Below are positions 15,564 to 39,806 of a stretch of 64,000 bases of DNA, one piece after another. Position 1 is the stretch's first letter. Every line of letters starts with the position of its first letter. The DNA lies in NCBI GenBank assembly GCA_000169115.1, contig AAVV01000004.1, forward strand, positions 62,001 through 126,000, given 5' to 3'. The translations under genes were made by a program, and so were the position numbers. This DNA comes from a marine gamma proteobacterium HTCC2080. Lineage in GTDB: Bacteria > Pseudomonadota > Gammaproteobacteria > Pseudomonadales > Halieaceae. Under the pieces are notes generated by a model. That model was not told where the DNA came from and ran no database searches. It was given only the letters and a program-made list of their open reading frames with translations.

Positions 15564-15739
15564 GGAGTTGGTCTCTTTTCTCTCGGAGCAGGTGTGATCA
15601 TTATTGTCCCGACTGGCCTCCGGTTCACCTACTGATTGCAGAGAAAGCACGCCTTGAACACTTGTTTGCCGATTTCGACACCCCTGAGGGTGAGCAGTTA
15701 GATACTGTGATGAGATCAAGTGCACAAATCAAAACTAAC

Positions 15740-19213: not shown

Positions 19214-19275
19214 TCGCCGAAGCTGCTCAGGGCCTCACAGGGGATCTAAGGTTGAGGCGGCGCACCGATATCACA

Positions 19276-21635: not shown

Positions 21636-22880
21636 TCACTCGATGAGTTGTTTAGCACTCCCGAAAACAATATAAACCACTGCCCCAAACACACTCACGC
21701 TAGCAGCGAGCAACAGCACAGAGTCGTAGGAACCCGTGGTGTCCACCAACCATCCCGCCGTCGCAACTCCAATGATGCCCGGCAGCGTACCAAGTGTGTT
21801 CATCACCCCAAAAACAACACCACCAAATCGCGGCGCAATATCGAGCACATTCGGTGCAGAACCGGAGTAAGCAAAGGCCAGCAATCCCAGTGCACCGCAA
21901 AGTGACAGTAGCGCCATCTCGGGTGTCGTCACAAAACGAGTTACGAGCAAAAAAGCCGCCGAACCCAACAGGCCAATGGTCTGCATCATCTTTCTGACGG
22001 TGGTGATGTTCCACCGTCGAGAAATCAGACCATCAGCGATCCATCCGGCAACATTCATCATCACAAACATGGCCGCCCAGGGTGCCATGGTGTAGATCCC
22101 CGCGCTGCCAATATCGAGCCCATGAACCGAAGTAAAGTAGCTGGGCATCCAGGACATGAAGACGTACAAACTCCAGCTGGTGCAAAAAAAGGTGACTAAC
22201 AGCGCCCAAATAGCTGGCAAGGACCAAATGGTTTTCCAGGGGATCGGGGCACGGTCTTCAGAAATCACACTACCCGCCAACAGAGCGCGCTCACTGGAGG
22301 ATACGTTTGGATGCAAGTCGGGACTCTCATGAATAGTACGGTTGAGCCAGAGCGCATAAATGAGGCCCGCGCCCCCAAAAACGTAAAACACTGACTGCCA
22401 GCCAAATCGCGCAACAGTAAAACCGGTCACCAACAACGCAGCGATAGTACCCGCTATCGCGGCACTAGAATAAATAGCGACCGCTCTCGATCGCTCATTT
22501 TCCGGAATCCAGCGCCCGAACAAACTGAGCACCGCTGGACTGAGAGGCGCCTCGCCAAGGCCAAGACCTATTCTGATCAGAATGAGCGCAAAAAATGAAG
22601 CCGATGCCGCAATAGGTGTCAGAATAGTAAATATTGACCACGCTACCATTGACCAGATTAGAACGCGTTTTCCGCCATACTTATCGGCTAGTACTCCTCC
22701 AAGAATTTGCGCAGCCATGTAGCCGATAAAAAAAGAGGATAATACGAAGCCTTTCTCCGTTTCACTCCAGCCCAGCGTTTCTTGCATCGCAATGGCCGCC
22801 ACAGAGATGTTGACTCGATCTAAATAAGCAATGAAAAGCGCAAAAAAACTTGCCAGAACCAAACTGTGACGCGCCTGCAT
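21636..22880 (-). CDS. MFS transporter (ACS-like anion:cation symporter)
   Basis: This 414-residue, 12-helix major facilitator starts MQARHSLVLASFFALFIAYLDRVNISVA. The motifs YLDRVNISVA, GYMAAQILGGVLADKYGGKRVL and LGLGEAPLSPAVLSL are typical of the anion:cation symporter (ACS) family, which carries hexuronates, phthalates, glucarate-like acids or dicarboxylates. ATG 22880 has a GGAGG ribosome site 4 bases upstream and is preferred over the earlier GTG at 22907. The gene is convergent with the molybdoenzyme (11-bp gap) and divergent from a DUF2817 protein. It may import a carboxylate for the neighbouring catabolic genes. Confidence 0.9.
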   Translation of the reverse strand: MQARHSLVLASFFALFIAYLDRVNISVAAIAMQETLGWSETEKGFVLSSFFIGYMAAQILGGVLADKYGGKRVLIWSMVAWSIFTILTPIAASASFFALILIRIGLGLGEAPLSPAVLSLFGRWIPENERSRAVAIYSSAAIAGTIAALLVTGFTVARFGWQSVFYVFGGAGLIYALWLNRTIHESPDLHPNVSSSERALLAGSVISEDRAPIPWKTIWSLPAIWALLVTFFCTSWSLYVFMSWMPSYFTSVHGLDIGSAGIYTMAPWAAMFVMMNVAGWIADGLISRRWNITTVRKMMQTIGLLGSAAFLLVTRFVTTPEMALLSLCGALGLLAFAYSGSAPNVLDIAPRFGGVVFGVMNTLGTLPGIIGVATAGWLVDTTGSYDSVLLLAASVSVFGAVVYIVFGSAKQLIE

Positions 22881-23124
22881 ACCGCCTCCATCTGCTTTTC
22901 CTCGCACCCTACCCCGTGATCTGTAGGGCTCTTTAATAGAACACTCGCATCAGCACAGGGTCAGATCATCATTTTTTTATTTTCGAAGCCTGTTTACCTT
23001 GACCAAATACACACTACGGGTAGATAGCAATTTCAGCAAACATCCTGTCATTCAACTTTCAGAGCTTGCTTACCTGTACTGCGACGGACATGCTAAGTGT
23101 TCACTTGCCAAGCGAATTTGCGTT

Positions 23125-24210
23125 ATGAATTCAGCGACTCTGTTTTCAAAATCCTACTCAGAGGCCCGTGAGCGCTTTCTGGACGCAGCCAATGACTGCG
23201 GCTTTAGTATCCACTCTCAGGTGCTGGACATTTCAGGCCCGGCTGGCGAAGAGCTGGCCATGGATTTTGCAGTGGGTGGGCCGGCCGATGCCGCTACTGC
23301 ATTAGTTATTGTCAGCGGCACCCATGGTCCAGAGGGCTATACCGGATCTGCCTGCCAATTGGGGTTTCTCACTTCACCCGAGTTCCGTGAGCTGTTCGCG
23401 CACCACCGCATCGTTCTGGTTCACGCCCATAATCCCTATGGCTTTGCATGGACCCGAAGAACCACCGAAGGTAACGTGGACCTGAATCGCAACTATGTTG
23501 ATTTCAATCAGCCGCTGCGAGGCAACCCAGAGTACGACGCTTTACACGATGCGTTTGTGCCGCGAGCAATCGATGACCCGGATGCCAAGAGAGTGCTCGA
23601 GGATTATCGCGAGGCGCACGGCGCAGTGGCGTATATGGCGGCGATGCTGGGCGGTCAACGGACTCATGCCGATGGCCTGTTCTATGGTGACACCAAGCCT
23701 GCTTGGTCTCAGGAAGTCATGGTGGCTGGACTGAGGCGCTGGCTGAAGGATCAGAAAACCGTCTTGCTCATTGACATCCATACAGGGTTAGGGCCCTACG
23801 GCGTTCCTTATCTTGTTCACGGTTATCCTGAGAATGACCCACGCTTTAGTGTCCTCAATACCCAGTTTGGATCAGCAATGCGCTCGACAGCCGTCAAAGA
23901 AGCTTTCGATGAGGATCTCCCCGTTGACCCAGAAGGGCCTATTGTTCTAGCAATGGATTGGATTCTGCCGGATAAGCAAACCTATGCCTTTGTCATTGAA
24001 TATGGCACTTACCCTCCCGATGAAGTACTGGGCGCTCATCAACAGGATAACTGGCTGCATGCCTACGGAGATTTGCAGTCCGAACAGGGCAAGGTGATCA
24101 AAGAGGAACTGCGCCGAGTCATGTATCCGGAGTTTGATGACTGGAAGACCATGATTTGGAACGAGGCTGAAGACGCCCTGTATAAATCAGCAAAGGTATT
24201 GAGCGGTTAG
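23125..24210 (+). CDS. DUF2817 (M14-like zinc carboxypeptidase fold) protein
   Basis: The protein of 361 residues from ATG 23125 matches the DUF2817 family, related to M14 zinc carboxypeptidases. SGTHGPEGYTGSACQLGFL near residue 65 contains the H-x-x-E metal pair. VDLNRNYVDF, LLIDIHTGLGPYG (third metal His) and FVIEYGTYPPDE (general-base Glu) are further signatures. No signal peptide is seen from this start. The family probably cleaves a C-terminal amino acid or amide from an unknown substrate. The upstream part of the open frame (22999-23124, TTG start) is not family-like and has no good ribosome site. The stop overlaps the end of the convergent TetR gene by 4 bp. Confidence 0.87.
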   Translation: MNSATLFSKSYSEARERFLDAANDCGFSIHSQVLDISGPAGEELAMDFAVGGPADAATALVIVSGTHGPEGYTGSACQLGFLTSPEFRELFAHHRIVLVHAHNPYGFAWTRRTTEGNVDLNRNYVDFNQPLRGNPEYDALHDAFVPRAIDDPDAKRVLEDYREAHGAVAYMAAMLGGQRTHADGLFYGDTKPAWSQEVMVAGLRRWLKDQKTVLLIDIHTGLGPYGVPYLVHGYPENDPRFSVLNTQFGSAMRSTAVKEAFDEDLPVDPEGPIVLAMDWILPDKQTYAFVIEYGTYPPDEVLGAHQQDNWLHAYGDLQSEQGKVIKEELRRVMYPEFDDWKTMIWNEAEDALYKSAKVLSG

Positions 24211-24827
24211 GACGCCACACCCAAACCATGCAAAATTTGGGCTTTGGCACTTTCCGCCAGAGCCCTGCCATCGAGTGTGTCTGCAAATCGATACCACTCA
24301 AGCAACATACCGTCAGTAAGAGCCACCAAGACCGCCGCCCGTTCCTTGATCGCGACTTTGTCGTCAAACAGGCCAAGGGCCTGCCCTTCAGTGGCTATGC
24401 GGTTCATCTCCTCATGGTAGCGGTCATACATCTTACGAACATGTTCCGCTACAGCCGGCTCCTTACCCATCGCCTGAAGAGAAACCAGTATGGGGAGTAC
24501 CAGCAGCTCCTGATTTTTAGCGCCGGTCTCCGCACACCAATCCACAAACATGCTCAACTGCTCTACCGGACCCTCACGAGAAGTTCGCATTTGCTCAAAA
24601 ATCCCTGCATACAAAGCTTCGGCATCGTCCAACAGTGCATGGAGCAAAGCCACTTTGCCTTTAAAATAAAAATACACTGCACCTTTGGTGAGCCCAGCTT
24701 TTGCAGCTATGGCATCGATAGTGGCGTTTTCGTAGCCCTGTGATACAAAAAGTTGCAGAGCAGCAGCCAGCACGTGCTGAACACTTTGCTCTCGTCGCTC
24801 CTCGTTACTGCGTCTGGCTGGCTGCAT
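24207..24827 (-). CDS. TetR-family transcriptional regulator
   Basis: This 206-residue protein has an N-terminal TetR helix-turn-helix: VLAAALQLFVSQGYENATIDAIAAKAGLTKGAVYFYFKGK, cut here to its recognition part AGLTKGAVYFYFKGK, at about residues 45-60. A ligand-binding helical domain of normal size follows. It is the last gene of the leftward train that begins with the ligase at 32728, and three bases separate it from the AraC gene. A perfect 8-bp inverted repeat of TetR-operator shape lies before the oxygenase large subunit of this train (31141-31164) and is a good candidate target. The ligand may be an acyl-CoA of the pathway; this is inference. Confidence 0.92.
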   Translation of the reverse strand: MQPARRSNEERREQSVQHVLAAALQLFVSQGYENATIDAIAAKAGLTKGAVYFYFKGKVALLHALLDDAEALYAGIFEQMRTSREGPVEQLSMFVDWCAETGAKNQELLVLPILVSLQAMGKEPAVAEHVRKMYDRYHEEMNRIATEGQALGLFDDKVAIKERAAVLVALTDGMLLEWYRFADTLDGRALAESAKAQILHGLGVAS

Positions 24828-24830
24828 GCA

Positions 24831-25877
24831 TCAAACCCCGCCGGCGCGTCGCTCTGACGGGCAACACCCGAACCACTTCCTATAGCTACGGGCGAAGTTA
24901 CTGCAGTCGCTGAAGCCCAAATGATAAGAAATTTCGTTAATCGACTTACCAGAATGAGATACCAGCTCCGCCGCCAACTCCTGACGCGTCCTTAGAACAA
25001 TCTGGTGATGACTCAGCCCCGCTTGCTGCAGTGCAACTTTGAGACGGCAATCCTCCATACCCAACCATGCGGCGATGTCCTGCCTGTCATAAGCCCCCAT
25101 GGGCAACAGCTCAAAAAGTGCCATTCGAATCTGAGTTTCGAGATCAACAGAGCCCATGAGCCGAAGATGATCGAAAACCTGGCGCTCACTTCGTCTTGCG
25201 AGCTCGGCATTACCACCCGCCAATGGCTCATCCAACACAGAAGCGTCAAAGCACAAGGCGTCAATGGCACTTCCAAACTTCAGCGAGCAGCGAAAATAGT
25301 GTTCATAATCATCCACAAAACCCAAGGGCGGCGGTGAAGAAAATTGCACTTCAACGGGAGCAAAGCTGGGCGAAGAGACCATTCTCAGCATCCGGACCCA
25401 GGTAGCCGCCCAACCCGAGAGCCGCGCAAGGCGCGCCATAGGGCTGTCACCGGCCTCCTCATGGCAGTGATAAACAAGCATCGCTCTGCCATTAACCACA
25501 TCAAATGACACCGACTTGTTAGTGGTGACCCATGCATAATAACGGGCTAATCTGGTACAAAACTGTCTAAGTGTGGGCGATGAAATAAGCATCAAACCGT
25601 AGCAGTGGTAAGTTGTGGCGTGCACATTCTCCGCAAATTTTAATCCAAACAACGGCCCCAGCTCCGAGCTCACTGCTCTAGAAATAATTTGCGATAGCGA
25701 TTGGATCGGCACACGTTCAAAGCTCTGAGCCAAGGCCTCTGGCGACACACCCGCCTCCATGAGCACGCCGTGGGTATCGACACCCAGCTTGTCGAGTGTT
25801 GTCGCAACGCCCTGAATGCTACTCATTGAGACGGATTCCCCTGCGGGAAGTGCCGCTGCCGAAATTACTTGCCTCAT
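24831..25877 (-). CDS. AraC-family regulator with OruR/ArgR-type N-terminal domain
   Basis: This 348-residue protein has the arabinose-binding-like N-terminal domain typical of long AraC regulators (Arabinose_bd, PF12625; YHCYGLMLISSPTLRQFCTRLARYYAWVT is cut here to YGLMLISSPTLRQF, near residues 93-106). A C-terminal double helix-turn-helix follows, ending LGFSDCSNFARSYRKWFG. Such proteins activate catabolic operons on binding a small acid. It lies 15 bp after the MaoC gene and 3 bp before the TetR gene on the same strand, so the regulators are probably made as part of the operon they may control. Confidence 0.9.
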   Translation of the reverse strand: MRQVISAAALPAGESVSMSSIQGVATTLDKLGVDTHGVLMEAGVSPEALAQSFERVPIQSLSQIISRAVSSELGPLFGLKFAENVHATTYHCYGLMLISSPTLRQFCTRLARYYAWVTTNKSVSFDVVNGRAMLVYHCHEEAGDSPMARLARLSGWAATWVRMLRMVSSPSFAPVEVQFSSPPPLGFVDDYEHYFRCSLKFGSAIDALCFDASVLDEPLAGGNAELARRSERQVFDHLRLMGSVDLETQIRMALFELLPMGAYDRQDIAAWLGMEDCRLKVALQQAGLSHHQIVLRTRQELAAELVSHSGKSINEISYHLGFSDCSNFARSYRKWFGCCPSERRAGGV

Positions 25878-25892
25878 TTCATCCCCCTGTCT

Positions 25893-26312
25893 CTATTCTT
25901 TTATCACCTCTACCATGCAGGTCGTCGTTTGGCCTCGCTCACTTTCACACCAGAGATTCAACAACCATTTTTCCCCTCGCTCTACTTCATCAATAGCGAC
26001 AACCTTACCCCGAAATAAAAGCGTATCCCCCACCACATTGAAATTTAGCATCTTTAGCGGCCCTATTTTTTTAAATCGTATGCGAGACCCAGCCCAGTTA
26101 CGCACGAGCCGCTCGAACATACCCATAAGGAAAAAGGTATTAGCGAAAGCTGCACTGGCACCGGCCGATTGCGCCACAGCAGAATCATGGTGCATGAGTG
26201 AAAAATCTCGATTGGCCCCTGCTTCCATAACTAGCCGCTGTAAGGTAATAGGAATTTCAATGGCAGGTAGCACGTCTCCAACCGCCGGAGCTTTGGCAAG
26301 TTGCTCGGTCAT
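25893..26312 (-). CDS. MaoC-like hot-dog hydratase, small subunit
   Basis: This 139-residue single hot-dog protein has PITLQRLVMEAGANRDFSLMHHDSAVAQSAGASAAFANTFFLMGM; shortened, the hydratase-2 type motif is RDFSLMHHDSAVAQSAG near residues 33-50, with Asp and His in positions used for water addition. In steroid side-chain degradation, a protein of this size (ChsH1 type) pairs with a second MaoC protein to hydrate an enoyl-CoA. Here it overlaps the 3' end of the next upstream MaoC gene by 4 bp, which supports a heteromer. It follows thiolase-like and DUF35 genes in the same train. Confidence 0.87.
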   Translation of the reverse strand: MTEQLAKAPAVGDVLPAIEIPITLQRLVMEAGANRDFSLMHHDSAVAQSAGASAAFANTFFLMGMFERLVRNWAGSRIRFKKIGPLKMLNFNVVGDTLLFRGKVVAIDEVERGEKWLLNLWCESERGQTTTCMVEVIKE

Positions 26313-26866
26313 TTGGTCACGCCCTGTTCCGCATAGAAGCGGAAGATATCGAGATTAGCCACCGCAATAACCTCTCCCGATTGCTTAGTATAGGTATCTT
26401 CCTGCCTAAGAAATGCGCCGGGGCCTACTTTCAGCGTTTTGCGCTGAATATCGATTAGTCTGCTGACGCATCCAACCACGTCACCCGGATACAACGGTTC
26501 GTTAAACTCGACTTCCATACTGGTGGCAAAACTTTTATTACAAGGCGCGGGCACATTAAAGATCACCGGTATCTGTATTTGGGTGGGTTCATCGTCGATA
26601 GACTTCGAGGAATCTCCGGGTGACCAGTAAGGCGCTACACCATAGCTAAACACCATCGAAGCGGGCGCCACCAGATCTGGAAAACCGACGGCACGAGCAG
26701 CGCCGACATCGGTATGAATTGCGCAGTCAAACTCCTTGGGCTCAAGCCAACGGCGGATACTGCCCGGCTCAACAGGATCCGGACCCCACCATTCACCGAC
26801 CACCGTGTTGAGGCATGCCTCAGTCTCCTCCCAGCTGCCCCACAACCCCCAGCCGACATCGCTCAT
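26309..26866 (-). CDS. MaoC-like hydratase, N-terminal (FAS1-type) subunit
   Basis: This 185-residue protein begins WGLWGSWEETEACLNTVVGEWWGPDPVEPGSIRRWLE; shortened, WGPDPVEPGSIRRWLEP is the tell-tale segment of N-terminal MaoC-like (PF13452) proteins. A later FDCAIHTDVGAARAVGFPDLVAPASM carries hot-dog features. In ChsH2 of Mycobacterium this domain is fused to a DUF35 domain; here the DUF35 protein is the separate gene just upstream, 3 bp away. With the small MaoC protein it probably forms a hydratase for a bulky enoyl-CoA. The 4-bp overlap with the next gene indicates translational coupling. Confidence 0.85.
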   Translation of the reverse strand: MSDVGWGLWGSWEETEACLNTVVGEWWGPDPVEPGSIRRWLEPKEFDCAIHTDVGAARAVGFPDLVAPASMVFSYGVAPYWSPGDSSKSIDDEPTQIQIPVIFNVPAPCNKSFATSMEVEFNEPLYPGDVVGCVSRLIDIQRKTLKVGPGAFLRQEDTYTKQSGEVIAVANLDIFRFYAEQGVTK

Positions 26867-26869
26867 AGA

Positions 26870-27277
26870 CTATACCGGCCTAAAAAATGGCAGGGTGATG
26901 TCCTCGGTAATCGAGCGAAAGACTACCTCGACCTCCATCCCAATGGCGACGTCCTCAGGCTGGCATTCCACTAGATTGGTGTGCATGCGGATTCCCTCAG
27001 GCAGATCTATCCACGCCAAAATGATCGGCAAATCCTCCACAAATTTTTGCTCCACACCCTCATAGGTTACGGAATACGTATAAACCGTTGCACGCCCGGA
27101 CGCTTTAATCCATCCCAAGTCCTGACTCCAGCACTCCGGGCAGTCGCGGCGCGGATAAAAAATATTGGCATCACAGGCATTGCAGTGCTGTATGAGTAAA
27201 AGTCCCTTTTTAGTCCCATCCCAGAAGGGCTGGCTATAAGGCTGTATTTCGGGCAACGGCTTTTTATAGTCGCTCAT
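26870..27277 (-). CDS. DUF35 OB-fold zinc-ribbon protein
   Basis: This 135-residue protein has a rubredoxin-like zinc ribbon CNACDANIFYPRRDCPECW (Cys-x2-Cys-x10-Cys-x2-Cys, residues about 33-50) followed by an OB-fold (GRATVYTYSVTYEGVEQKF, then LAWIDLPEGIRMHTNLV). DUF35 proteins act as obligate partners of SCP2-type thiolases and of thiolase-like aldolases such as Ltp2. Its start overlaps the end of the thiolase gene by 4 bp (27277/27274), which is strong context for a stable complex. It is not an enzyme on its own. Confidence 0.92.
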   Translation of the reverse strand: MSDYKKPLPEIQPYSQPFWDGTKKGLLLIQHCNACDANIFYPRRDCPECWSQDLGWIKASGRATVYTYSVTYEGVEQKFVEDLPIILAWIDLPEGIRMHTNLVECQPEDVAIGMEVEVVFRSITEDITLPFFRPV

Positions 27278-28455
27278 CGTGGCTTCCTCCCAAAGACCGT
27301 GGTGCAGGTATTCATCACGGAACCACCGGAAGTGGTCAGAATCGCGTGTTCACATTGATCGACCTGACGATCCCCGGCCTCACCGCGCAATTGGCGGACG
27401 CTATCGAGGTAGAACGCCATACTGACGCCACTGCCTGTATGTCCTCTTCCAGTTGCATCGCCCATGGTCGTGCAGGGCAAGTCGCCTCCGGGACCACAAC
27501 GTCCCTCCGCCCAGAGCTTTGCTCCCTGTCCGTCCTCGCAAACGCCATAACCCTCGAGCGCGCTACATTGCGTATAGGGGTAGGCGCCATAGATCTGCCT
27601 GAGGTCCATATCGTGGATTGACAGCCGAGCCTGGCACAACGCGTCGCGACTAGACTCGCGGTAAGCTTGGCGGTGAAACACATCCTCGCGAAGCATGGGT
27701 GTAGCACTCATAAAACGGGTGCCATGTCCCAATTTGTAAACCGCCTTATCCCCTAACTCCCGAGCCTTTTCCCATGAGGTGACCACCATCGCTCCACCAC
27801 CATCTGCCAGCAAATTACATTCCTTAGCCTTCAATGGTGTGCTAATCATGCGAGAGTTCATGACGTCGTCCAAGGTTACGGTTTTACCATAAAAGATAGA
27901 CAGCGGATCGAGGGCGCCCCAGGCCCGTAAAGCAACTGTCACAGAAGCTAACTCTTCCTCCGTTGCACCGGTCTCATACATGTAGCGCTGAGTAATAAGA
28001 CCCATTGACCCGTTAAAACTTACGCCATACGGATACTCAAATTGCTTATCGAGGGGTGCGGTAGCAAAGAAGTTGATGAGGTCCTGGGGCGGCATATCGG
28101 ACTGAACAGTGGTGTGTGGAATCAGAACGTAGTCCACCTGACCGCTGGCGATGTGCTGCTCTGCCAGCCGCAAACAGTTGGTTGTGGATGCGCCCCCCGC
28201 ATTGCAAATTGCGATGTCGCGACAGCCTTTCAGGCCCATGACCTCGGGAATTTTTCCCAGCGACATATCATTTTGCATTGAGGGCTGCGCCATCGGGTTA
28301 TTCGAAATGACAGCACCGATAAGATTCTTGTCTATTCCCGCATCACGAATCGCTCCCATACAGACATCCAGCAGGATGTCCCAGCGCTGACGCTCAGGAT
28401 CACGGCGCGTGGGCACCTCCGCGATCCCTACAATCGCGAGACCAGATTTTGTCAT
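27274..28455 (-). CDS. SCP2/Ltp-type thiolase-like protein without catalytic Cys (probable retro-aldolase)
   Basis: This 393-residue thiolase-fold protein is of the lipid-transfer-protein (SCP-x) type, as shown by GYGVCEDGQGAKLW and GRGHTGSGVSM. The segment that normally holds the nucleophilic Cys (CASG) reads CNAGGASTTNCLRLA, with Gly near residue 88 at the Cys position. The second Cys in the C-terminal loop also appears replaced (TTSGGSVMNTC). Known Cys-less relatives such as Ltp2 are aldolases that cleave a 3-hydroxyacyl-CoA by retro-aldol reaction together with a DUF35 partner and a MaoC hydratase. All those partners follow directly. A retro-aldolase is therefore more likely than a thiolase. 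The substrate is not known. Confidence 0.88.
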   Translation of the reverse strand: MTKSGLAIVGIAEVPTRRDPERQRWDILLDVCMGAIRDAGIDKNLIGAVISNNPMAQPSMQNDMSLGKIPEVMGLKGCRDIAICNAGGASTTNCLRLAEQHIASGQVDYVLIPHTTVQSDMPPQDLINFFATAPLDKQFEYPYGVSFNGSMGLITQRYMYETGATEEELASVTVALRAWGALDPLSIFYGKTVTLDDVMNSRMISTPLKAKECNLLADGGGAMVVTSWEKARELGDKAVYKLGHGTRFMSATPMLREDVFHRQAYRESSRDALCQARLSIHDMDLRQIYGAYPYTQCSALEGYGVCEDGQGAKLWAEGRCGPGGDLPCTTMGDATGRGHTGSGVSMAFYLDSVRQLRGEAGDRQVDQCEHAILTTSGGSVMNTCTTVFGRKPR

Positions 28456-28501
28456 TGGCTCCCTCCTCTTTTTATTTTTTAAGCCGGCCAGTGGTCAGGA
28501 T

Positions 28502-29353
28502 TTATGCGTAATCGGTATGGCTGTACTCCGCGCGGTCAACTAAATCGAGATTGTCGTCAACGCTGACAGCGAGGGGGCGCCTCAGAGTCACGGTGTCTGG
28601 ATCTGTCGGTACCATGAACTCCCACAAAGTTGGCGGTACAGTTGCACCGCGGCACTTGCGTCGCACTGAGTCCCAGTCATCTGGGCACTCGCAACGCAGC
28701 TTCGATTGAATTTCTGTCGGCTCCAAGCCCGTTGCTTGAGCCAGCACATCGACCACATCGTCTATAAAACCTGACCGTGCAGATTCAAGTGACGCCGCTC
28801 TAATACCTGCGTCTAAAAGCAAATCCGCTGCAGCAACATCGCCAAACCAGCGCGCTACCGTAGGCCCCCGTATGGCGAGTGACTGCCGCATGTCGTCCTG
28901 CTCTTCATCACTAGTCGCCGTCATCCAGCCCTCGAGGCCCAACCGGTGAAAATAGAGCTCCTTGCCAAAATGCTTCACCATGCCCGATAGCGCTTTGTCG
29001 CTCCCCTCTAAAAAGGTTGAAAGTAGGCGCCATACTGCACATTCCGCCAAGAACGCAGTGACGAGGAAATCACCCCAGTTCTGTGGAGGAAGCGACAACG
29101 CCTCAAGATCATGTAATTCGCTAGGTTGGCGACCAAACTCAAGCTGGTGCTCGGGCAGTCCAAGACGATCTTCCAACAGCCGAAAAATCGCCCGTGTATG
29201 GCCCAGGCTGTCCTGCCCCATCCCCGCGAATGCTGTGCAATCGGGGAGACTGCGGCCATTCAGCATCACTTTGATATACCAGTGTCCTAACACCCAGTCG
29301 GTATCGGCAATACACAGTAACTCCTGCATCAACGCCTTGTCTGTTCCAGACAT
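28502..29353 (-). CDS. PaaC-like structural subunit of a CoA-thioester epoxidase
   Basis: This protein of 283 residues resembles PaaC, the ferritin-fold partner of PaaA in phenylacetyl-CoA epoxidase. It starts MSGTDKALMQELLCIADTDW and has GQDSLGHTRAIFRLLEDRLG near residue 48, with the fold of the DELGHAR stretch of PaaC. A later stretch ELYFHRLGLEGWMT matches the second helix pair. In PaaC the iron ligands are degenerate and the protein stabilises PaaA. ATG 29353 has GGGAGAGAG just upstream and replaces a longer frame start at 29416. The C-terminal part, from about residue 230, has a PTLWEFMVPTDP stretch not expected in PaaC and may be a family-specific extension. Confidence 0.8.
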   Translation of the reverse strand: MSGTDKALMQELLCIADTDWVLGHWYIKVMLNGRSLPDCTAFAGMGQDSLGHTRAIFRLLEDRLGLPEHQLEFGRQPSELHDLEALSLPPQNWGDFLVTAFLAECAVWRLLSTFLEGSDKALSGMVKHFGKELYFHRLGLEGWMTATSDEEQDDMRQSLAIRGPTVARWFGDVAAADLLLDAGIRAASLESARSGFIDDVVDVLAQATGLEPTEIQSKLRCECPDDWDSVRRKCRGATVPPTLWEFMVPTDPDTVTLRRPLAVSVDDNLDLVDRAEYSHTDYA

Positions 29354-29379
29354 CTCTCTCTCCCACTCGCTGCCCCGAA

Positions 29380-29601
29380 CTACTGCCCGGGAAGTTTGTC
29401 CTGCCACTTCATCCATCCAAAAACAGACTTACACTGATTACACTGCATACTCATTTCCGACACCGTACCGCCAAAAGGATTCGAAACACGCGTGCTCTCC
29501 GACCCACACCAAGGGCAAGCGACGGTCGCGTCGTATTGCAACCCGAACAACTCTGTCAGGCTGCTAGAACGATCCTTGGTGCTATCGCGCCCCTCAGCCA
29601 C
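29380..29601 (-). CDS. PaaD-type C-terminal zinc ribbon as a separate small protein
   Basis: This 73-residue protein holds a two-Cys-pair zinc ribbon: VACPWCGSESTRVSNPFGG near residues 31-49 and MQCNQCKSVFGWMKW. This matches the C-terminal domain of PaaD (CPRCG...FGST...RC..C), including the FGG turn. PaaD normally carries a DUF59 domain at its N-terminus, and here that domain is encoded 259 bp away as its own gene with a PaaB-like gene in between. The start is GTG at 29601, 3 bp after the PaaB-like stop. It probably works with the DUF59 protein in assembling the diiron or Fe-S centre. Confidence 0.82.
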   Translation of the reverse strand: MAEGRDSTKDRSSSLTELFGLQYDATVACPWCGSESTRVSNPFGGTVSEMSMQCNQCKSVFGWMKWQDKLPGQ

Positions 29602-29604
29602 GGC

Positions 29605-29850
29605 TTAAGCAATCCCGATCATGTCGTTAACCGAGATCACCGGTATCACCTCGACACGAGGACAAATACACATTTCTACCCAGGGTTTTTCCGAGTACAC
29701 CATCCTTGCCTGGCCAACCGCTGCAGCCCTGTTTGGCGCACTGACAGAGCCCAAATGAAACAGGGGTCCGTCAAGCTCCTCCCGTGCAAATACCTCAAAA
29801 TAGTCCCAGTCCATGGTATTACGCGCTGTTTTTTGCGTGACTAAACCCAC
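29605..29850 (-). CDS. PaaB-like subunit of a CoA-thioester epoxidase
   Basis: This 81-residue protein contains DYFEVFAREELDGPLFHLGS, then the PaaB pattern of an Ala-rich helix (AAAVGQARMVYSEKPWVEM) and ICPRVEVIPV. PaaB is the small bridging subunit of phenylacetyl-CoA epoxidase (WEVFVR...HxGSxxAxDAxxAxxNARDVYTRR). The GTG start (29850) has AGGAG six bases upstream; an internal ATG at 29814 lacks a ribosome site. It lies between the DUF59 and zinc-ribbon halves of a PaaD-type protein, an unusual order. Confidence 0.82.
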   Translation of the reverse strand: MGLVTQKTARNTMDWDYFEVFAREELDGPLFHLGSVSAPNRAAAVGQARMVYSEKPWVEMCICPRVEVIPVISVNDMIGIA

Positions 29851-29859
29851 CTTCTGCTC

Positions 29860-30174
29860 CTAGATGCAATAACCATGTTCACGTGCAATAAGTCGAGCCT
29901 CGGGAACGATGTCGTCCCGGCTCCATTCGTGTTGCCACTCAACCCTAACTTTGGTGGAGCGCACGCCCGCAAGCGCGCCAACTGAACGCTTAATATCGTT
30001 TTGGATCAAATCCCAGGCCGGACAACCCACGCACGGGAACACCAACCCAACATCGACATCACCGTCTTGTGAAACCGTAATCCTTCGGACCATGCCCATA
30101 TCAGGGAGGCTAACGTTCATGTGCGGATCCATCACACCATTGAGCACCTCAGCTACGGCGCCTTCGGTTACCAC
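29860..30174 (-). CDS. DUF59 (MIP18/PaaD N-terminal) protein
   Basis: This 104-residue protein is a lone DUF59 domain. VAEVLNGVMDPHMNVSLPDM and GMVRRI correspond to the DPExpxxxxDLGMVr motif, and VFPCVGCPAWDLI holds the conserved Cys of the family. In PaaD this domain precedes a zinc ribbon and is needed for epoxidase activity, probably in metal-centre maturation. GTG 30174 overlaps the end of the PaaA-like gene by 7 bp, so the two are translationally coupled. The zinc ribbon is the separate gene at 29380-29601. Confidence 0.87.
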   Translation of the reverse strand: MVTEGAVAEVLNGVMDPHMNVSLPDMGMVRRITVSQDGDVDVGLVFPCVGCPAWDLIQNDIKRSVGALAGVRSTKVRVEWQHEWSRDDIVPEARLIAREHGYCI

Positions 30175-31115
30175 AACTGATCACCCCATTCTTCCCGCTG
30201 CAAACGCTCGTAGCAGGAGGGACGCATCGGCCCACCAGACTTGAACTTGCCGATAGCACGATCCCAACTGGTCTCTTCCCATTCCCAATCATGGGCTCCT
30301 GCATCAAAGGTCATCGGGTAAGGCATATCGGTAATACGATACTCACCGGTTTCCTCGTCCTTCTCTGCAGGCACCTTGAGACCGACCCGGTCAGCAAAGT
30401 CAGTCGCTGACCGGAGCCATTTATTGCGCATGGTGTCGTTACTCCACGCGCGGACCTTGTAGTTCAGCTGATCCGGGTATCCCTTTAAATCGTCCGGACG
30501 TCCGTACCAGTGGTAACCCCAGGGAAAGATCCAGCGGACGGCATCTTCAACCAGCTCTTTAGTCTCATCGTTCTGATTGAAATAGAACTCCGTCCACATC
30601 GCGCCATGACGAAAATGATAAGCCTCCTCAAAATTGACTTTTTTTAACGTCCGCCGATAGGGCGCAAAGCTGCAATTGAGCTCGATGTCCCACGTCGTAA
30701 AACGACCAGCTCGATCCAGGAATGCCTGTGAAACCACAAACTCTGCATAATTTCTGACAGGAAACTCCATAATGGGCAGCGACCAGTATTTTCTGGGATC
30801 CGCCTCAAAGGCGACCTTCTGCATATCAAAACCAAAGCGCTCAAAGAGCATGCCCTGTTGGTGGGCATGTCCCACTTCGTCCTGAATGGTTCCACAGATC
30901 GCGACTTTGGCTCCGATATCTGGCGCAACTCTGAACGCGGTGTAAGCCCACGTCAGCACCGTCACTTCAGACTGCGCAGCAATCTCGAGGGTTCGCTCCA
31001 GAATTGCGCGATAGCGGGGCGTCAACTCCTGCATATCCTCGATCAATTCGCCGGCGTGTATGCGTTCTAGTAGCGCCTGCTCTTGGGGATCAACCGCTGT
31101 CATTGGCTGCGACAT
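30168..31115 (-). CDS. PaaA-like diiron oxygenase catalytic subunit
   Basis: The protein of 315 residues has the PaaA/ferritin-like diiron fold. The two E-x-x-H motifs expected for a carboxylate-bridged diiron site are seen as DEVGHAHQ (Glu80, His83) and EEAYHFRHG (Glu164, His167). PaaA of the phenylacetate pathway epoxidises phenylacetyl-CoA with O2 and electrons from PaaE. ATG 31115 has an AGGA site about 7 bases upstream and gives MSQPMTAVDPQE; an upstream start at 31145 would run over an inverted repeat and is less likely. No paaE-like reductase or paaG/paaZ genes are present, so the substrate need not be phenylacetyl-CoA. It leads the five-gene oxygenase block. Confidence 0.88.
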   Translation of the reverse strand: MSQPMTAVDPQEQALLERIHAGELIEDMQELTPRYRAILERTLEIAAQSEVTVLTWAYTAFRVAPDIGAKVAICGTIQDEVGHAHQQGMLFERFGFDMQKVAFEADPRKYWSLPIMEFPVRNYAEFVVSQAFLDRAGRFTTWDIELNCSFAPYRRTLKKVNFEEAYHFRHGAMWTEFYFNQNDETKELVEDAVRWIFPWGYHWYGRPDDLKGYPDQLNYKVRAWSNDTMRNKWLRSATDFADRVGLKVPAEKDEETGEYRITDMPYPMTFDAGAHDWEWEETSWDRAIGKFKSGGPMRPSCYERLQREEWGDQLW

Positions 31116-31140
31116 TTCTTTTCCTACCGTGGCTTTTTCA

Positions 31141-31164
31141 AACATACCTACTATACGGTATGTT
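31141..31164. promoter_or_regulatory. perfect inverted repeat, candidate TetR-family operator
   Basis: AACATACC-TACTATAC-GGTATGTT is a perfect 8-bp inverted repeat with an 8-bp spacer, ending 26 bp before the PaaA-like start codon. The ACATACC...GGTATGT form is common among TetR-family operators. It could control an internal promoter of the train. The operon ends with a TetR gene, which makes an autoregulatory loop plausible but unproven. Confidence 0.6.
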
Positions 31165-31204
31165 TATGAAGTGGATTTGTCATTTCAGGCAAATTTTCAG
31201 GGCC

Positions 31205-32728
31205 CTACACCGCTTCAAGCCGCAGCTTAATGGCCTTTTTGTCTACTTTTCCAAGGTTGGTAAGCGGCAAAGCACTATCAAATTCGATGGACTTTGGGGT
31301 TAGCAAGGGGCCCGTACTTTGCCTCAAAAAGCCAATCAGCTCTTCCTCTGAGCACTCCCGGCCTGCTTTTAGCACCACCAGCGCGTGCACCCGCTCGCCC
31401 CACTTACGATCCGGCAGTCCAACGACCGCCGCAACATCAACGCTGTCATGCGCCGTCAATGCCCGCTCCACGTCCTGTGAATAGATATTGAAGCCGCCGC
31501 TGATAATCATGTCCTTGAGCCTATCAACGATAAACAGAAACCCTTCTTCATCCATAAATCCCACATCGCCGGTATGAAGCCACCCCGACTGCAGCGCTTC
31601 AGCGCTAGCCTCGGGGCGTTGCCAGTAACCCGCGAGGAGACTTGGCCCCTTAACGCATATTTCACCCACCTCTTTCAGGGGTAAGGCGCTGCCGTGAGCA
31701 TCAACGACCGACACCGTCATACCGAGAGTCGCTCGCCCCACACTCTCAAGCCGCCTACTCACCGATGGATTGTGTTCCTTGTGTGTCATACACGTAATAT
31801 GAATGCTCTCCGTTTGACCGTAGCACTGGTGTAAAATAGGACCGAAAAGGTGGAGGGCTTCGCGAAGCCGCTCCGGTGCGATGGGCGCCGACGCATAAAT
31901 AATGTGCTCCAAGTTGCTCAGATCTCTTTGACCAACGCCAGGATGATCGAGAAGTCCGTAGATCATACTGGGCACTAGAAAGAGTGTATTGACGCCCTGA
32001 TTCTCAATACATCGAATCACCGGCTCGGGCGAGAACCTAGGCAACAGCGAAACGCGGCCGCCAAGCATCAAAACTGGCAGCACTAGAAATCCCGCCGCAT
32101 GACTGATCGGTGAACACGCCAAAAAATGCGGCTGCTCGGGAAACTGCCACGCAGCTCGCGCAATCTCAGCAGTCGCCCCCATACCTTTCTGTGTGTGCAT
32201 GACCCCCTTAGGATCACCCGTGGTACCACCGGTGTAACTAACCCATGCAATATCTTCGCTATCTTGTTGATCATCCAGCCAAGGCCGATCAACTAATAGA
32301 TCCCCCAGATACTCACCAAAATTTGCCCGGGAAAGCGTGATCACGGCCAGCTTGGGGAAGGCGTCGGCTAATCGGGCACCCCACTCTGCAAATGCTGCAG
32401 AATCAATGACCAACAGCTTGGCTTGGGAATCATTGACAACAAATCGCTGCTGATCCAAAGAACCCAGAGGATGAAGGGGCGTGTAACGACCGCCCGCGCG
32501 CAGACAGGCTGCCATAACGGCAAAAGCGTCTACACAATTACTTGCAAGCTGTGCCAATCCATCGCCACGTTCTAGCCCAGAGGCTCGCAACAGACTGGCA
32601 ATACCCTCAATACGCTGTCGCAACGCGTGACCGCTGTAAAACTCCCCCGTTACATCAGCGACCGCGACTGCATCACCGATATCAGCCAAAGCTTTATTCA
32701 ATAAATCTGTGTAATTAGCTGATGCCAC
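31205..32728 (-). CDS. AMP-dependent acyl-CoA ligase
   Basis: This 507-residue acyl-CoA synthetase has the ATP/AMP signature SYTGGTTGDPKGVMHT near residue 165, the YGQTE motif near residue 300, GWLHTGDVGFMDEEGFLFIVDR shortened to HTGDVGFMDEEG, the hinge DRLKDMIISGGFNIYS and the C-terminal catalytic lysine in NLGKVDKKAI. It converts a carboxylic acid to its CoA thioester with ATP. It starts at a GTG (32728) 90 bp from the upstream AraC gene and is followed by the oxygenase block. As the first gene of the train it probably activates the pathway substrate before oxygenation. Confidence 0.9.
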   Translation of the reverse strand: MASANYTDLLNKALADIGDAVAVADVTGEFYSGHALRQRIEGIASLLRASGLERGDGLAQLASNCVDAFAVMAACLRAGGRYTPLHPLGSLDQQRFVVNDSQAKLLVIDSAAFAEWGARLADAFPKLAVITLSRANFGEYLGDLLVDRPWLDDQQDSEDIAWVSYTGGTTGDPKGVMHTQKGMGATAEIARAAWQFPEQPHFLACSPISHAAGFLVLPVLMLGGRVSLLPRFSPEPVIRCIENQGVNTLFLVPSMIYGLLDHPGVGQRDLSNLEHIIYASAPIAPERLREALHLFGPILHQCYGQTESIHITCMTHKEHNPSVSRRLESVGRATLGMTVSVVDAHGSALPLKEVGEICVKGPSLLAGYWQRPEASAEALQSGWLHTGDVGFMDEEGFLFIVDRLKDMIISGGFNIYSQDVERALTAHDSVDVAAVVGLPDRKWGERVHALVVLKAGRECSEEELIGFLRQSTGPLLTPKSIEFDSALPLTNLGKVDKKAIKLRLEAV

Positions 32729-32818: not shown

Positions 32819-33859
32819 TTAGGATTCGTCGTTGAGTGCGACTTTAATGCGGTAGGTCATCGGTGAAAGCCCCGTCCACTTTTTAAAGGCTCTTGAAAAA
32901 TTTGCAGTGTCAGAAAAGCCTGTAAGGTAAGCGATTTCGTTCACCGGCAAACCCTTTGTCAGATAATCCTCAGCCAACAGCTTGCGAGTTTCATCCAGAA
33001 CCTCACGAAAAGTAGTACCCGCCTCTTCAAGACGGTTGTATAGCGTCCTAGTACTCACGCACAGTACGCTTGCCACAGCATCTTTTCCAGATACACCAGT
33101 GGGTAGTAATCTCACCAATTCGTTGCGAACCCGCGCTGGAAAATCGGCTTTTTCCAGCTTAGCTATATATTGTTCGGTCAGCTGGTCATAAGACTGGGCG
33201 AGCTGTGGATCTGCACCAACCAAAGGCAATTTAAGCAGTTGAGAGTCAAAAGATATCGAGGTCTCAGGCGCACCAAAAAGGACATCGCATCCAAAAAAGT
33301 CCTCGTAGTGGGACGCCTCATCTTCAGGGAAAGGGCGCGCCAAAGACACAGTGCGGGGCCGAAATTCGTTCTGACTTGCTATGCGAAGAATCGTTACGAA
33401 GATGGCAGCAATGCCATCTTCACGGATTGGAGGAAACGGCTCTGGATTATGCGTCGTCCAGCGCAGCGCACATTCTCCGACCTCTTTCACCAGAGACATC
33501 ACATCATTGGTAGTCACCACAGAGTAGTAACGCACCATTTTTTCAAGATACTCACCCATTGTGGCGCTGCAATAGGCAGCTACGCCCAAGCTGTAAAAAG
33601 TGGTGGGATGGATAAACTTCGCCAAATGTAATCCAAAGGTGCGAGCCGAGGCCTGCGCTTCAATCGCTTGCAACAAATTTCGAAAAGCGCCGTCAGCGAT
33701 CCGAGTATTAGGGTCAAGCAGCGGCCCTACCTCAATACCAGCCTCTGCGAATAAGGGCTCAGGTTCAATACCTAAATCCTCCAGCGCTTGCCAGATAACG
33801 ACACCTAGGGGACCAATAGTCGAAAATTTCTGTGCGATCATAAAAAGGATGGAATGCAC
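32819..33859 (-). CDS. AraC-family regulator with OruR-type N-terminal domain
   Basis: This 346-residue regulator has the arabinose-binding-like N-terminal domain (YSLGVAAYCSATMGEYLEKM near residues 111-130) and a C-terminal AraC helix-turn-helix pair ending GFSDTANFSRAFKKWTG. It resembles the AraC protein at 24831-25877 in layout, so the train is bracketed by two related regulators. It lies upstream of the ligase on the same strand and is divergent from a MaoC gene at 34085. A positive role on the ligase/oxygenase train is plausible. Confidence 0.9.
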   Translation of the reverse strand: MHSILFMIAQKFSTIGPLGVVIWQALEDLGIEPEPLFAEAGIEVGPLLDPNTRIADGAFRNLLQAIEAQASARTFGLHLAKFIHPTTFYSLGVAAYCSATMGEYLEKMVRYYSVVTTNDVMSLVKEVGECALRWTTHNPEPFPPIREDGIAAIFVTILRIASQNEFRPRTVSLARPFPEDEASHYEDFFGCDVLFGAPETSISFDSQLLKLPLVGADPQLAQSYDQLTEQYIAKLEKADFPARVRNELVRLLPTGVSGKDAVASVLCVSTRTLYNRLEEAGTTFREVLDETRKLLAEDYLTKGLPVNEIAYLTGFSDTANFSRAFKKWTGLSPMTYRIKVALNDES

Positions 33860-34084: not shown

Positions 34085-34540
34085 ATGAAGACAATATTGC
34101 AAACCCAAAGAGATTTCGAAAGCCGCGTTGGTAAAACTCTGTTTGAGTCACAACCTGTAATAATCGATAGCGATCGAATCCAAGCCTACTGCAAGAGCCT
34201 CGACCAGCTTGACTGGTTCCATTTCGATGAGGATCAATGCCACGAGGCCGGGCTCACTAACATAATCGCGCCAGGCTCGCTGACCTTTGCTTTGGTACAC
34301 TCTACTTTTTTCCAACATATCGAATTAATAGATCTTAAAGCGCTATTTGTGGGCAGTGATCGCTTTCGGGTAGTGCGCCCAGTCACGGCAAACGATTTGG
34401 TAACGCTACGAATGGTCATCGCTACTGTCGAAAGTAGACAGGAAGGCTTCCGAGTGGCCTACAAATTTGAGTGGCAAGGGGCTAACGAGGCCGACCCAAT
34501 ATCCAATGGGATGTTTCTTGTTCGATACTGGCCCAGCTAG
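34085..34540 (+). CDS. MaoC-like hot-dog dehydratase
   Basis: This 151-residue hot-dog protein shows DWFHFDEDQCHEAGLTNIIA followed by PGSL, matching the (R)-specific enoyl-CoA hydratase motif DxxPxHxDxxxAxxxxxxxxIAPGxL, although the central His of H-x-D is split as HFDED. A RFRVVRPVTANDLVTLRM strand follows. It would hydrate a 2-enoyl-CoA to the (R)-3-hydroxy form. It is divergent from the AraC gene and followed 88 bp later by a hydroxyacid dehydrogenase, so both may be one unit. Confidence 0.82.
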   Translation: MKTILQTQRDFESRVGKTLFESQPVIIDSDRIQAYCKSLDQLDWFHFDEDQCHEAGLTNIIAPGSLTFALVHSTFFQHIELIDLKALFVGSDRFRVVRPVTANDLVTLRMVIATVESRQEGFRVAYKFEWQGANEADPISNGMFLVRYWPS

Positions 34541-34628: not shown

Positions 34629-35792
34629 ATGCCGAAACTTGATCGCTATTTCAATATTGCAGAGCTCAGAAAAGCGGCCCAAAAAAACCTCCCAGCGTCT
34701 ATTTTTCATTATCTTGACGGGGGCGCTGACGACGAATGGTCCCTGCGACGAAATACCAATGCTTTTGACCAGTGGGAGATAATTCCATCCGCTCTCACCG
34801 GCATCACCAAACCCACTCTCAACACTCGGCTATTTGATCGCGACATCGCATTACCTTTTTTCCTGTCGCCCACCGGTATGTCGCGGCTTTTTCATCACGA
34901 TAAGGAGCTAGCGGCTGCGCGAGCAGCGGGCAAGGCCGGTACCTTCTATAGCCTATCGTCAATGGGATCAAGCACGATTGAAGAGGTCGCATCGGCAGTA
35001 CGAGGCCCGAAGCTATTTCAGATATACGTCTTCAGAGATCGCGCCCTCACCCAGAGCTTTTTAGAGCGCTGCAAAAGCGCCCGGTACGACGCAATATGTC
35101 TCACCGTAGACACCACGGTTGCCGGCAACCGGGAACGCGACATCAGGACCGGCATGACCATTCCACCGTCGCTGGCACTCAAATCGCTCCTTAGTTTTAC
35201 AACGAAGTGGCCATGGCTTCTCGGGTTGAGGCATAACCGTGATTTCACTCTCGCCAACCTATCTAAGAATATCGACCCCAAAAATTCCGGTGCTTTGAAT
35301 ATTTTCGATTACGTCAATCAACAGTTCGACCCGTCAATCAGCTGGGAAGATGTCACCTGGTTGAGAGACCGATGGGAGGGCCCACTGATCATCAAGGGTC
35401 TATTATCTGCCGAGGATGCCAAACAGGCTCAGCGCATTGGCTGCACCGGCGTCATAGTCAGTAATCACGGCGGTCGGCAGCTGGATTCAGCGGCAGCCCC
35501 TATTGACTGCATCTCAGCCATGCGCGATGCAGTCGGAGACAGCATGGACTTAATTCTTGATGGCGGCATTCGTCGTGGCAGCCACATTTGTAAAGCCCTC
35601 GCGCTGGGCGCTTCTGCCTGCTCTATTGGCAGGCCCTATCTCTATGGCCTAGCGGCCGGCGGCGAACCAGGCGTAAACCAAGCCATCGAGATATTAGCTA
35701 GTGAAACACGTCGATGCATGCAATTAGCCGGCTTTCACTCGGTTGCCGCACTGCAATCCAGCGGAGCCGTGAGAAAGGCTGGAAGAGGGTGA
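34629..35792 (+). CDS. FMN-dependent 2-hydroxyacid dehydrogenase (LldD family)
   Basis: This 387-residue TIM-barrel flavoprotein has NIAELRKAAQKNLPASIFHYLDGGADDEW, cut here to FHYLDGGADDEW near residue 25. The active-site His and Arg are in IVSNHGGRQLDSAAAP near residue 280, and the FMN phosphate site in LILDGGIRRGSHICKALALG is cut to DGGIRRGSHICKALALG. Family members oxidise lactate, mandelate, glycolate or long-chain 2-hydroxyacids and pass electrons to quinone or O2. The membrane-binding insert of LldD near the middle (residues about 180-215, hydrophobic LKSLLSFTTKWPWLLGL) is present, which suggests membrane association. Confidence 0.92.
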   Translation: MPKLDRYFNIAELRKAAQKNLPASIFHYLDGGADDEWSLRRNTNAFDQWEIIPSALTGITKPTLNTRLFDRDIALPFFLSPTGMSRLFHHDKELAAARAAGKAGTFYSLSSMGSSTIEEVASAVRGPKLFQIYVFRDRALTQSFLERCKSARYDAICLTVDTTVAGNRERDIRTGMTIPPSLALKSLLSFTTKWPWLLGLRHNRDFTLANLSKNIDPKNSGALNIFDYVNQQFDPSISWEDVTWLRDRWEGPLIIKGLLSAEDAKQAQRIGCTGVIVSNHGGRQLDSAAAPIDCISAMRDAVGDSMDLILDGGIRRGSHICKALALGASACSIGRPYLYGLAAGGEPGVNQAIEILASETRRCMQLAGFHSVAALQSSGAVRKAGRG

Positions 35793-39569: not shown

Positions 39570-39806
39570 AAACCTCTCCTCTAATGGAGCAACTGGGGCA
39601 ATTATTAGGAAACTGCTATCGTCGCTGCAGAACTTTCAGATGCAGCAGCGCTGCCCTGACAGTAACCCAGCCGGGCGAGAGGGGGAAACAGTCGTCTCGG
39701 CAGAAATGGCCAGAGTGAGGGTCAAACCAAGAGCTTTGTCGCACATTGATAATTAGAATAAAATGCGAAGGTGGTTGAAGACAAGTCAGTAAGCAAGGTG
39801 AGGGGC

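Follow-up and report, generated by a model that had tools for sequence, protein, structure and literature searches.

The question raised by this locus was which pathway is served when a PaaABC-like oxygenase and a putative retro-aldolase stand together in one gene train. The train was found in the marine gammaproteobacterium HTCC2080 (Halieaceae), within a stretch of 64,000 nucleotides (nt) that is called the window here (GenBank assembly GCA_000169115.1, contig AAVV01000004.1, positions 62,001 to 126,000). As judged from the sequence, a CoA-thioester catabolic pathway other than that of phenylacetate was supported. We proposed, tentatively and with somewhat less than an even chance of being right, that the operon was the core of a catabolic island of about 35 kb in Luminiphilus and other Halieaceae, whose oxygenase and hydratase-aldolase halves acted in a joint scheme. 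The substrate of the island would be a bulky ring-containing (aryl or cyclic) acid, which could probably also be supplied in the form of its amino, hydroxy or 2-oxo acid.

The train consisted of 12 genes, all on the minus strand, running from 32728 to 24207 with intergenic gaps of at most 59 nt and several overlaps of 4-7 nt. The order, strand and spacing were those given in a first-pass annotation, which had been made from the sequence alone. From the ligase gene to the TetR gene the spacings were 59, -7, 9, 3, -37, 46, -4, 3, -4, 15 and 3 nt. The value of -37 nt was attributed to an over-long listed start of the PaaC-like gene, and the true start was probably located downstream of the listed ATG. 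The promoter/terminator scan was uninformative, with overall fewer matches than in shuffled sequence and no promoter-like site on the minus strand. The families named at first pass agreed with Pfam, where the cut-offs were exceeded by AMP-binding, PaaA_PaaC (twice), FeS_assembly_P, PaaB, Zn_ribbon_PaaD, Thiolase_C_1, zf-ChsH2 with OB_ChsH2_C, and FAS1_DH_region. Only the second MaoC protein agreed weakly, with 21.1 bits against PF01575, under the 27-bit cut-off; a HadB model matched it as well.

The PaaABC-like oxygenase

The first gene of the operon encoded an AMP-forming acyl-CoA ligase (31205..32728; PF00501 246.8 bits, PF13193), which was not PaaK. Its best NCBIfam model, the FadD8-like NF004838, was matched with 416 bits, far short of the 875 needed. 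The ligase gene was followed by those of a PaaA-like catalytic subunit, a predicted diiron acyl-CoA oxygenase (30168..31145; PF05138 118 bits), a DUF59 protein (29860..30174; PF01883 64 bits, NF041868, TIGR02159), a PaaB-like bridging subunit (29605..29850; PF06243 29.5 bits, cut-off 27), a zinc ribbon protein (29380..29601; PF23451 Zn_ribbon_PaaD 53 bits) and a PaaC-like structural subunit (28502..29416; PF05138 69.7 bits, TIGR02158 38 of the 133 bits needed). Since the DUF59 and zinc ribbon proteins each matched a part of PaaD (TIGR02159), they were read as the N-terminal and C-terminal halves of this maturation factor, split into two genes; NCBIfam holds separate haloarchaeal models for the PaaD halves. 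The oxygenase set was therefore A, D1, B, D2 and C without PaaE.

All six diiron ligands were present in the PaaA-like protein (E60, E90, H93, D144, E174 and H177); those of the E. coli PaaA are E42, E72, H75, D126, E155 and H158 (PMC4498308). The six were kept in 84-86 of 86 relatives. All ten canonical PaaA proteins had the lysine bridge Lys68-Glu49. Not one of the 86 clade members had it, and the window protein had Thr86 for Lys68 and Ala67 for Glu49. The pocket was changed as well, as Phe108, which orients the phenylacetyl group, was replaced by Met126, and Lys103 by Trp121. When 57 proteins were placed in a tree, the E. coli PaaA, the PaaA of the same genome and nine others formed the canonical group, which was split from the group of the window protein at 100/100 support, on a joining branch that was long and drew a program warning. 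The score against the TIGR02156 equivalog was 77 bits, when 280 were needed. By sequence, the protein thus falls outside the phenylacetate PaaA clade, and membership in it was not supported.

These data bear on the possibility that the operon is paralogous to the paa locus elsewhere in the genome and encodes a second phenylacetyl-CoA epoxidase. Such a paralogue would agree with the presence of the PaaA, B, C and D families and with PaaA being the best PDB match and the best fold match. The predicted fold of the PaaA-like protein (predicted local distance difference test score, pLDDT, 88) was matched with Z 31 to PaaA and Z 21 to BoxB, and a BoxB-like identity was rejected on that weaker match. 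The paralogue was itself rejected because the tree, with full support, set the protein apart from the canonical clade and because the lysine bridge is lost; the Phe108 to Met and Lys103 to Trp changes and the scores far under the NCBIfam equivalog cut-offs also count against it. Furthermore, neither a PaaE reductase nor paaG, paaZ, paaJ or paaK was found at 24-36 kb of the window, as noted at first pass, whereas canonical paaA, B and C, a PaaE-like Fer2 reductase and a paaJ-type thiolase were recognised on another contig (C9) of the genome. The second epoxidase was therefore regarded as extremely improbable, and the early proposal of a pathway different from phenylacetate degradation was borne out by the tree, the missing bridge and the separate canonical genes. 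A position of the PaaA-like protein within the PaaA clade, which the first-pass annotation had named as a refutation of its proposal, was looked for in the tree and not observed.

In three relatives (L048-L050) a 2Fe-2S ferredoxin gene was located directly after paaC. Because of this position, an external 2Fe-2S ferredoxin is the likely electron donor of the oxygenase.

A large clade (loci L025, L028-L032 and L051-L112) was made up of PaaA-like proteins that lacked the lysine bridge and were accompanied by a separate DUF59 gene. Its hosts were Thermus, haloarchaea, Rubrobacter, Chloroflexota, Bradyrhizobium, Agrobacterium plasmids and also marine Proteobacteria. Its members carry the annotation of phenylacetic acid proteins, and in several of the plasmid records they stood beside genes of a crotonase, an aldehyde dehydrogenase and transporters.

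The hydratase-aldolase cassette and its conservation

The oxygenase genes were followed by a cassette of four. The first encoded a thiolase-fold protein without the thiolase cysteines, a putative retro-aldolase (27274..28455; PF22691 and alignments). Its nucleophile loop read NAGGAS and its C-terminal Cys motif TSGGS, with no conserved Cys at either, so that the description of a thiolase lacking Cys, given at first pass, held for the two catalytic positions. Tyr289, in the motif YGAY, was invariant in 11 thiolase sequences, with Ala291 as the third motif residue instead of His (Ltp2) or Cys (Sal). His339 was also invariant and aligned with the site of Tyr344 in Ltp2 and Gln352 in Sal. Catalysis by Ltp2 depends on Tyr294 of YDHF and on Tyr344, and that by Sal on Tyr302 and Cys304 of YDCY, with Gln352 present (PMC12329534). 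By these motifs the protein is hardly a true thiolase; the best reading of its sequence is a retro-aldol cleavage with a second catalytic residue of its own. The nearest plasmid homologues of the thiolase adjoined cytochrome P450, CoA-ligase and acyl-CoA dehydrogenase genes, by which no substrate was named.

The thiolase gene overlapped by 4 nt that of a DUF35 protein with a zinc ribbon and an oligonucleotide-binding (OB) fold (26870..27277; PF12172, PF01796). The two MaoC-fold proteins followed, M1, a ChsH2/HadA-like subunit (26309..26866; PF13452 and alignment), and M2, a ChsH1/HadB-like hydratase (25893..26312; NF010246 HadB and alignment). In M2 the Asp36/His41 pair was invariant in 7 sequences. 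In M1 an invariant Phe46, five residues before His51, occupied the position of the catalytic Asp, and the His was kept; a shifted Asp47 was observed in only 3 of 7 sequences. The pair would thus resemble the ChsH2/ChsH1 hydratase, with one incomplete and one complete MaoC active site; the division of labour between the ChsH1 and ChsH2 subunits has been published (PMC11321319). The motifs of the thiolase, M1 and M2 accorded with the hydratase and retro-aldolase anatomy that had been assigned to this half of the operon.

A joining role was weighed besides cleavage. PhlC was among the PDB matches of the thiolase, and the thiolase/DUF35 pair might join carbon chains, as in PhlABC, in a biosynthetic or acyl-transfer role. 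Against this, there was no PhlA partner, carrier protein or polyketide gene, and genes for CoA catabolism, TetR/AraC control and uptake prevailed in the island. We considered such a role very improbable.

The linkage of the two halves was followed in one genome of each of 84,980 prokaryote species. Among the 80 best loci, 18 had a PaaA-like protein 54-100% identical to that of the window, mostly in metagenome-assembled genomes (MAGs) of Luminiphilus and other Halieaceae; the remaining hosts were Lysobacterales, Hellea-like, Oceanospirillaceae and Rhizobiaceae MAGs. The order A-DUF59-B-Zn-C was kept in all 18 loci, hence the arrangement is not due to chance. The thiolase, DUF35, M1 and M2 genes stood directly after PaaC in 11 of the 18, some loci being cut by a contig end; in L049 the cassette was inverted and about 4 kb away, and in L046 the contig of the oxygenase carried it about 11 kb further upstream. 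The gene-order search suggested at first pass thus returned the oxygenase order in 18 loci, mainly of Halieaceae; in 13 of them the cassette was next to the oxygenase or shared its contig, and in 5 it was not found.

Of 37 congeneric genomes, the same five carried the PaaA-like protein, the thiolase and a BisC-family enzyme. In one of these (G003) the contig ended within the thiolase, and the BisC-like gene was only 46% identical and lay on another contig. Because the genes are linked, the co-occurrence in five genomes represents shared inheritance rather than many independent gains. The pairwise identities of the PaaA-like protein and the thiolase were correlated (r 0.84, Mantel p 0.005). No match was found in viral contigs.

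The surrounding catabolic island

The island, at about 285-35792, was collinear in two sister species (three Luminiphilus genomes in all), and no such block was present beyond those limits. A crotonase (285-1079, minus strand) and a FabK/nitronate-monooxygenase-like flavoprotein (1307-2437, plus strand) marked the left end. The right end was formed by a flavin mononucleotide (FMN)-dependent 2-hydroxy-acid dehydrogenase of the lactate type (34629..35792, plus strand; NF008398 327 of 376 bits, and collinearity). The island also contained a TonB receptor, about 41-43% identical in the sister species, and a major facilitator superfamily transporter conserved in them (21636..22907, minus strand).

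Several of the conserved genes were related to CoA thioesters. A pyridoxal phosphate-dependent aminotransferase-like enzyme (10643..11827, minus strand) was 84-96% conserved in the two sister species. Next to it, on the same strand, were two acyl-CoA dehydrogenases, of which one (13022..14170) had the usual EGT motif that carries the catalytic Glu and its partner (11852..13018) lacked this motif; we take the pair to be reminiscent of the heteromeric steroid acyl-CoA dehydrogenases. They were followed by a conserved CaiB/BaiF-type CoA-transferase (14427..15725, minus strand; NCBIfam matches under cut-off) and by a fused protein of the indolepyruvate:ferredoxin oxidoreductase family, predicted to convert a 2-oxo acid into an acyl-CoA (15506..19213, plus strand; NF009589 1491 bits, over cut-off). 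The true start of the latter was probably about 200 nt downstream of the listed one. The aminotransferase, the hydroxy-acid dehydrogenase and the oxidoreductase suggest that a CoA thioester is obtainable from an amino, hydroxy or oxo acid. The aminotransferase or the hydroxy-acid dehydrogenase, followed by the 2-oxo-acid:ferredoxin oxidoreductase, may thus make up a route to the thioester that was not seen at first pass.

The same genes were considered in terms of alpha-oxidation, where the oxygenase would hydroxylate beside the thioester carbonyl, the FMN dehydrogenase would form the 2-oxo acid and the indolepyruvate-type oxidoreductase would yield a CoA thioester one carbon shorter. This agreed with the conservation of both enzymes in the island and with a 4HBT-type thioesterase beside the dehydrogenase in one relative. 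However, the operon of the window had no thioesterase, PaaA-family enzymes are known for ring epoxidation, and the aminotransferase points rather to amino acids as the entry, which left alpha-oxidation improbable.

The molybdoenzyme of the BisC/dimethyl sulfoxide (DMSO)-reductase family (19180..21624, plus strand; TIGR00509 938 of 1018 bits, PDB match DMSO reductase) was a frequent neighbour of the oxygenase, and its relatives were without an evident export signal. A DUF2817 protein, an M14-like putative amidase/peptidase, was conserved (22999..24210, plus strand; PF10994 307 bits). The operon itself ended with an AraC-family regulator (24831..25877; NF049968 QhpR 148.7 bits, under cut-off) and a TetR-family regulator (24207..24827), the latter assigned from its translation and kept in relatives. 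A second AraC-family regulator upstream of the ligase (32819..33859, minus strand) clustered with the first one and was kept beside the operon in relatives. A lone MaoC protein, M3 (34085..34540, plus strand; PF13452, PF01575), stood close to PaaA in most relatives, also in the absence of the lyase cassette, and may act on the product of the oxygenase. RidA-like, amidohydrolase, D-amino-acid dehydrogenase and D-lactate-type dehydrogenase genes were additionally found in relatives.

At 8934-10612 a fatty-acid-type CoA ligase was split into overlapping frames (10025-10612 and 8934-10070) and looks like a decaying gene. The sister genome G002 had seemingly only a shortened copy of it, and an intact relative was present at 49272-50948 in the window. 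Just right of the island, at 39771-43581, a PSCyt3/DUF1588 protein was followed by a DUF1501 protein, neither of which occurred there in the two sister species. Two adjacent glutathione S-transferase-like genes were located at 44025-45454; such genes were also near the cluster in L033 and L041.

Proposed pathway and comparison with known systems

In the joint scheme, the acid would be converted into its CoA thioester either by the ligase or, from the 2-oxo acid, by the indolepyruvate-type oxidoreductase. The split PaaD would mature the PaaA-PaaB-PaaC enzyme, a 2Fe-2S ferredoxin would take the place of PaaE as its reductant, and the enzyme would insert a single oxygen atom into the thioester's ring. 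The M2/M1 hydratase would form a beta-hydroxyacyl-CoA, and the enoyl precursor could come from the acyl-CoA dehydrogenase pair. A retro-aldol cleavage by the thiolase-fold and DUF35 proteins would then release a short acyl-CoA together with either a ketone or an aldehyde, with Tyr289 acting as a base and His339 possibly as an acid. The ibuprofen-CoA pathway, in which the CoA thioester is first oxygenated and then loses its side chain by a retro-aldol reaction, provides a precedent (PMC9195938).

Cleavage of the oxygenase product by the aldolase is plausible but not compelled, since the halves can separate, and the hydratase would be better served by the dehydrogenase as its source of enoyl-CoA. 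As for the original idea that the acid is oxygenated, hydrated and cleaved, the combination of these functions was upheld by the gene content; the order of the steps is conjectural, since the cassette was missing in some carriers.

Several observations weigh against the joint scheme. The cassette was not found in L036, L039, L044, L047 and L050, which are MAGs, so that its absence elsewhere in those genomes is uncertain. In L036 the PaaA-like protein was 92% identical, yet PaaC ran directly into AraC with no cassette between them. The absence in L036 and the failure to find the cassette in the four others indicate that the oxygenase can work without it. The thiolase motif is YGAY, not YDHF or YDCY, and a His replaces Tyr344/Gln352, therefore the chemistry of this protein is not fixed by homology; its predicted structure was also poor (mean pLDDT 43). 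The oxygenation and hydration steps are not obviously interdependent, as a beta-hydroxylating oxygenase would need no hydratase. Finally, the scheme gives no role to the BisC-family enzyme, the DUF2817 protein and the FabK-like flavoprotein.

The separability of the cassette is what would be expected of two modules acting on different parts of the molecule or at different stages, where the oxygenase and M3 open the ring, and the thiolase, DUF35 and MaoC proteins shorten a separate side chain after an ordinary dehydrogenation. The company of M3 and PaaA without the cassette points the same way, as does the acyl-CoA dehydrogenase pair, the usual enoyl-CoA source for a ChsH-type hydratase. Direct adjacency in one operon in 11 of the 18 loci argues for a joint function instead, and no obvious ring-opening aldehyde dehydrogenase was present within the conserved island. 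We regarded the two-module arrangement as possible but doubtful, and retained the joint scheme as the preferred reading.

In a narrower version of the joint scheme, an aerobic pathway would start from an acid of the arylacetic type, with an amino acid as its origin. The ring would be oxygenated at or next to the side-chain carbon, dehydrogenation and hydration would give a tertiary beta-hydroxyacyl-CoA, and the thiolase without Cys would split it into acetyl-CoA and a cyclic ketone. This version seems unlikely as stated. The conversion of indoleacetyl-CoA into isatin and acetyl-CoA would serve as an example only, in which most of the recognised enzymes have a sensible role. Three PF04199 cyclases were found in the genome; they belong to a broad family, are not linked to the island and are neutral on the isatin route.

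A literature search, with most subscription journals outside its scope, returned no published description of the oxygenase and lyase combination or of the bridge-less clade; neither were descriptions found under PaaA with DUF35, MaoC or DUF59, Luminiphilus oxygenases, indoleacetyl-CoA/isatin, or PaaABC relatives. Taken singly, the modules are variants of systems already known; it is their combination and the bridge-less clade that were not found described. If the joint scheme is true, a PaaABC-type diiron enzyme joins the strategy of activation, oxygenation as a CoA thioester and retro-aldol removal of the side chain, in common coastal bacteria; the ibuprofen version of this strategy, with a dioxygenase, is already known. 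PaaA/PaaC-family genes were proposed as markers of phenylacetate degradation in 2026 (PMC13186573). They are unsafe as such, because a large clade keeps the diiron site without the lysine bridge.

Compared with PaaABC(D)E, the system has the same catalytic A, bridging B and structural C subunits, a PaaD-type maturation factor and six diiron ligands, and a CoA-thioester substrate is expected. It differs in the separate clade, the absent lysine bridge, the altered pocket residues, the division of PaaD into two genes, the lack of PaaE and the other pathway neighbours. The BoxAB benzoyl-CoA epoxidase likewise epoxidises a CoA thioester at a diiron site and has broadly the same fold, but the structural similarity was lower than to PaaA, and its reductase and ring-opening genes are different.

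To our knowledge, no MaoC pair takes part in the cleavage step of the ipf system (IpfABDEF). That system resembles the present one in its CoA ligase, thioester oxygenation and retro-aldol side-chain removal by a thiolase-type enzyme (PMC9195938), and differs in using a dioxygenase system in place of the PaaABC-like diiron monooxygenase of the window. The cassette shares with ChsH1-ChsH2-Ltp2 (igr operon) and Shy-Sal a thiolase fold without the nucleophile, a DUF35 partner and a MaoC pair with one complete Asp/His dyad. Unlike the MaoC-DUF35 fusion in ChsH2, DUF35 and M1 are encoded here by separate genes, and M1, unlike ChsH2, keeps the His of the dyad. The YGAY motif with His339, the PaaABC-like oxygenase alongside and the fact that no other steroid genes were recognised in the window further distinguish it from the Ltp2 and Sal systems.

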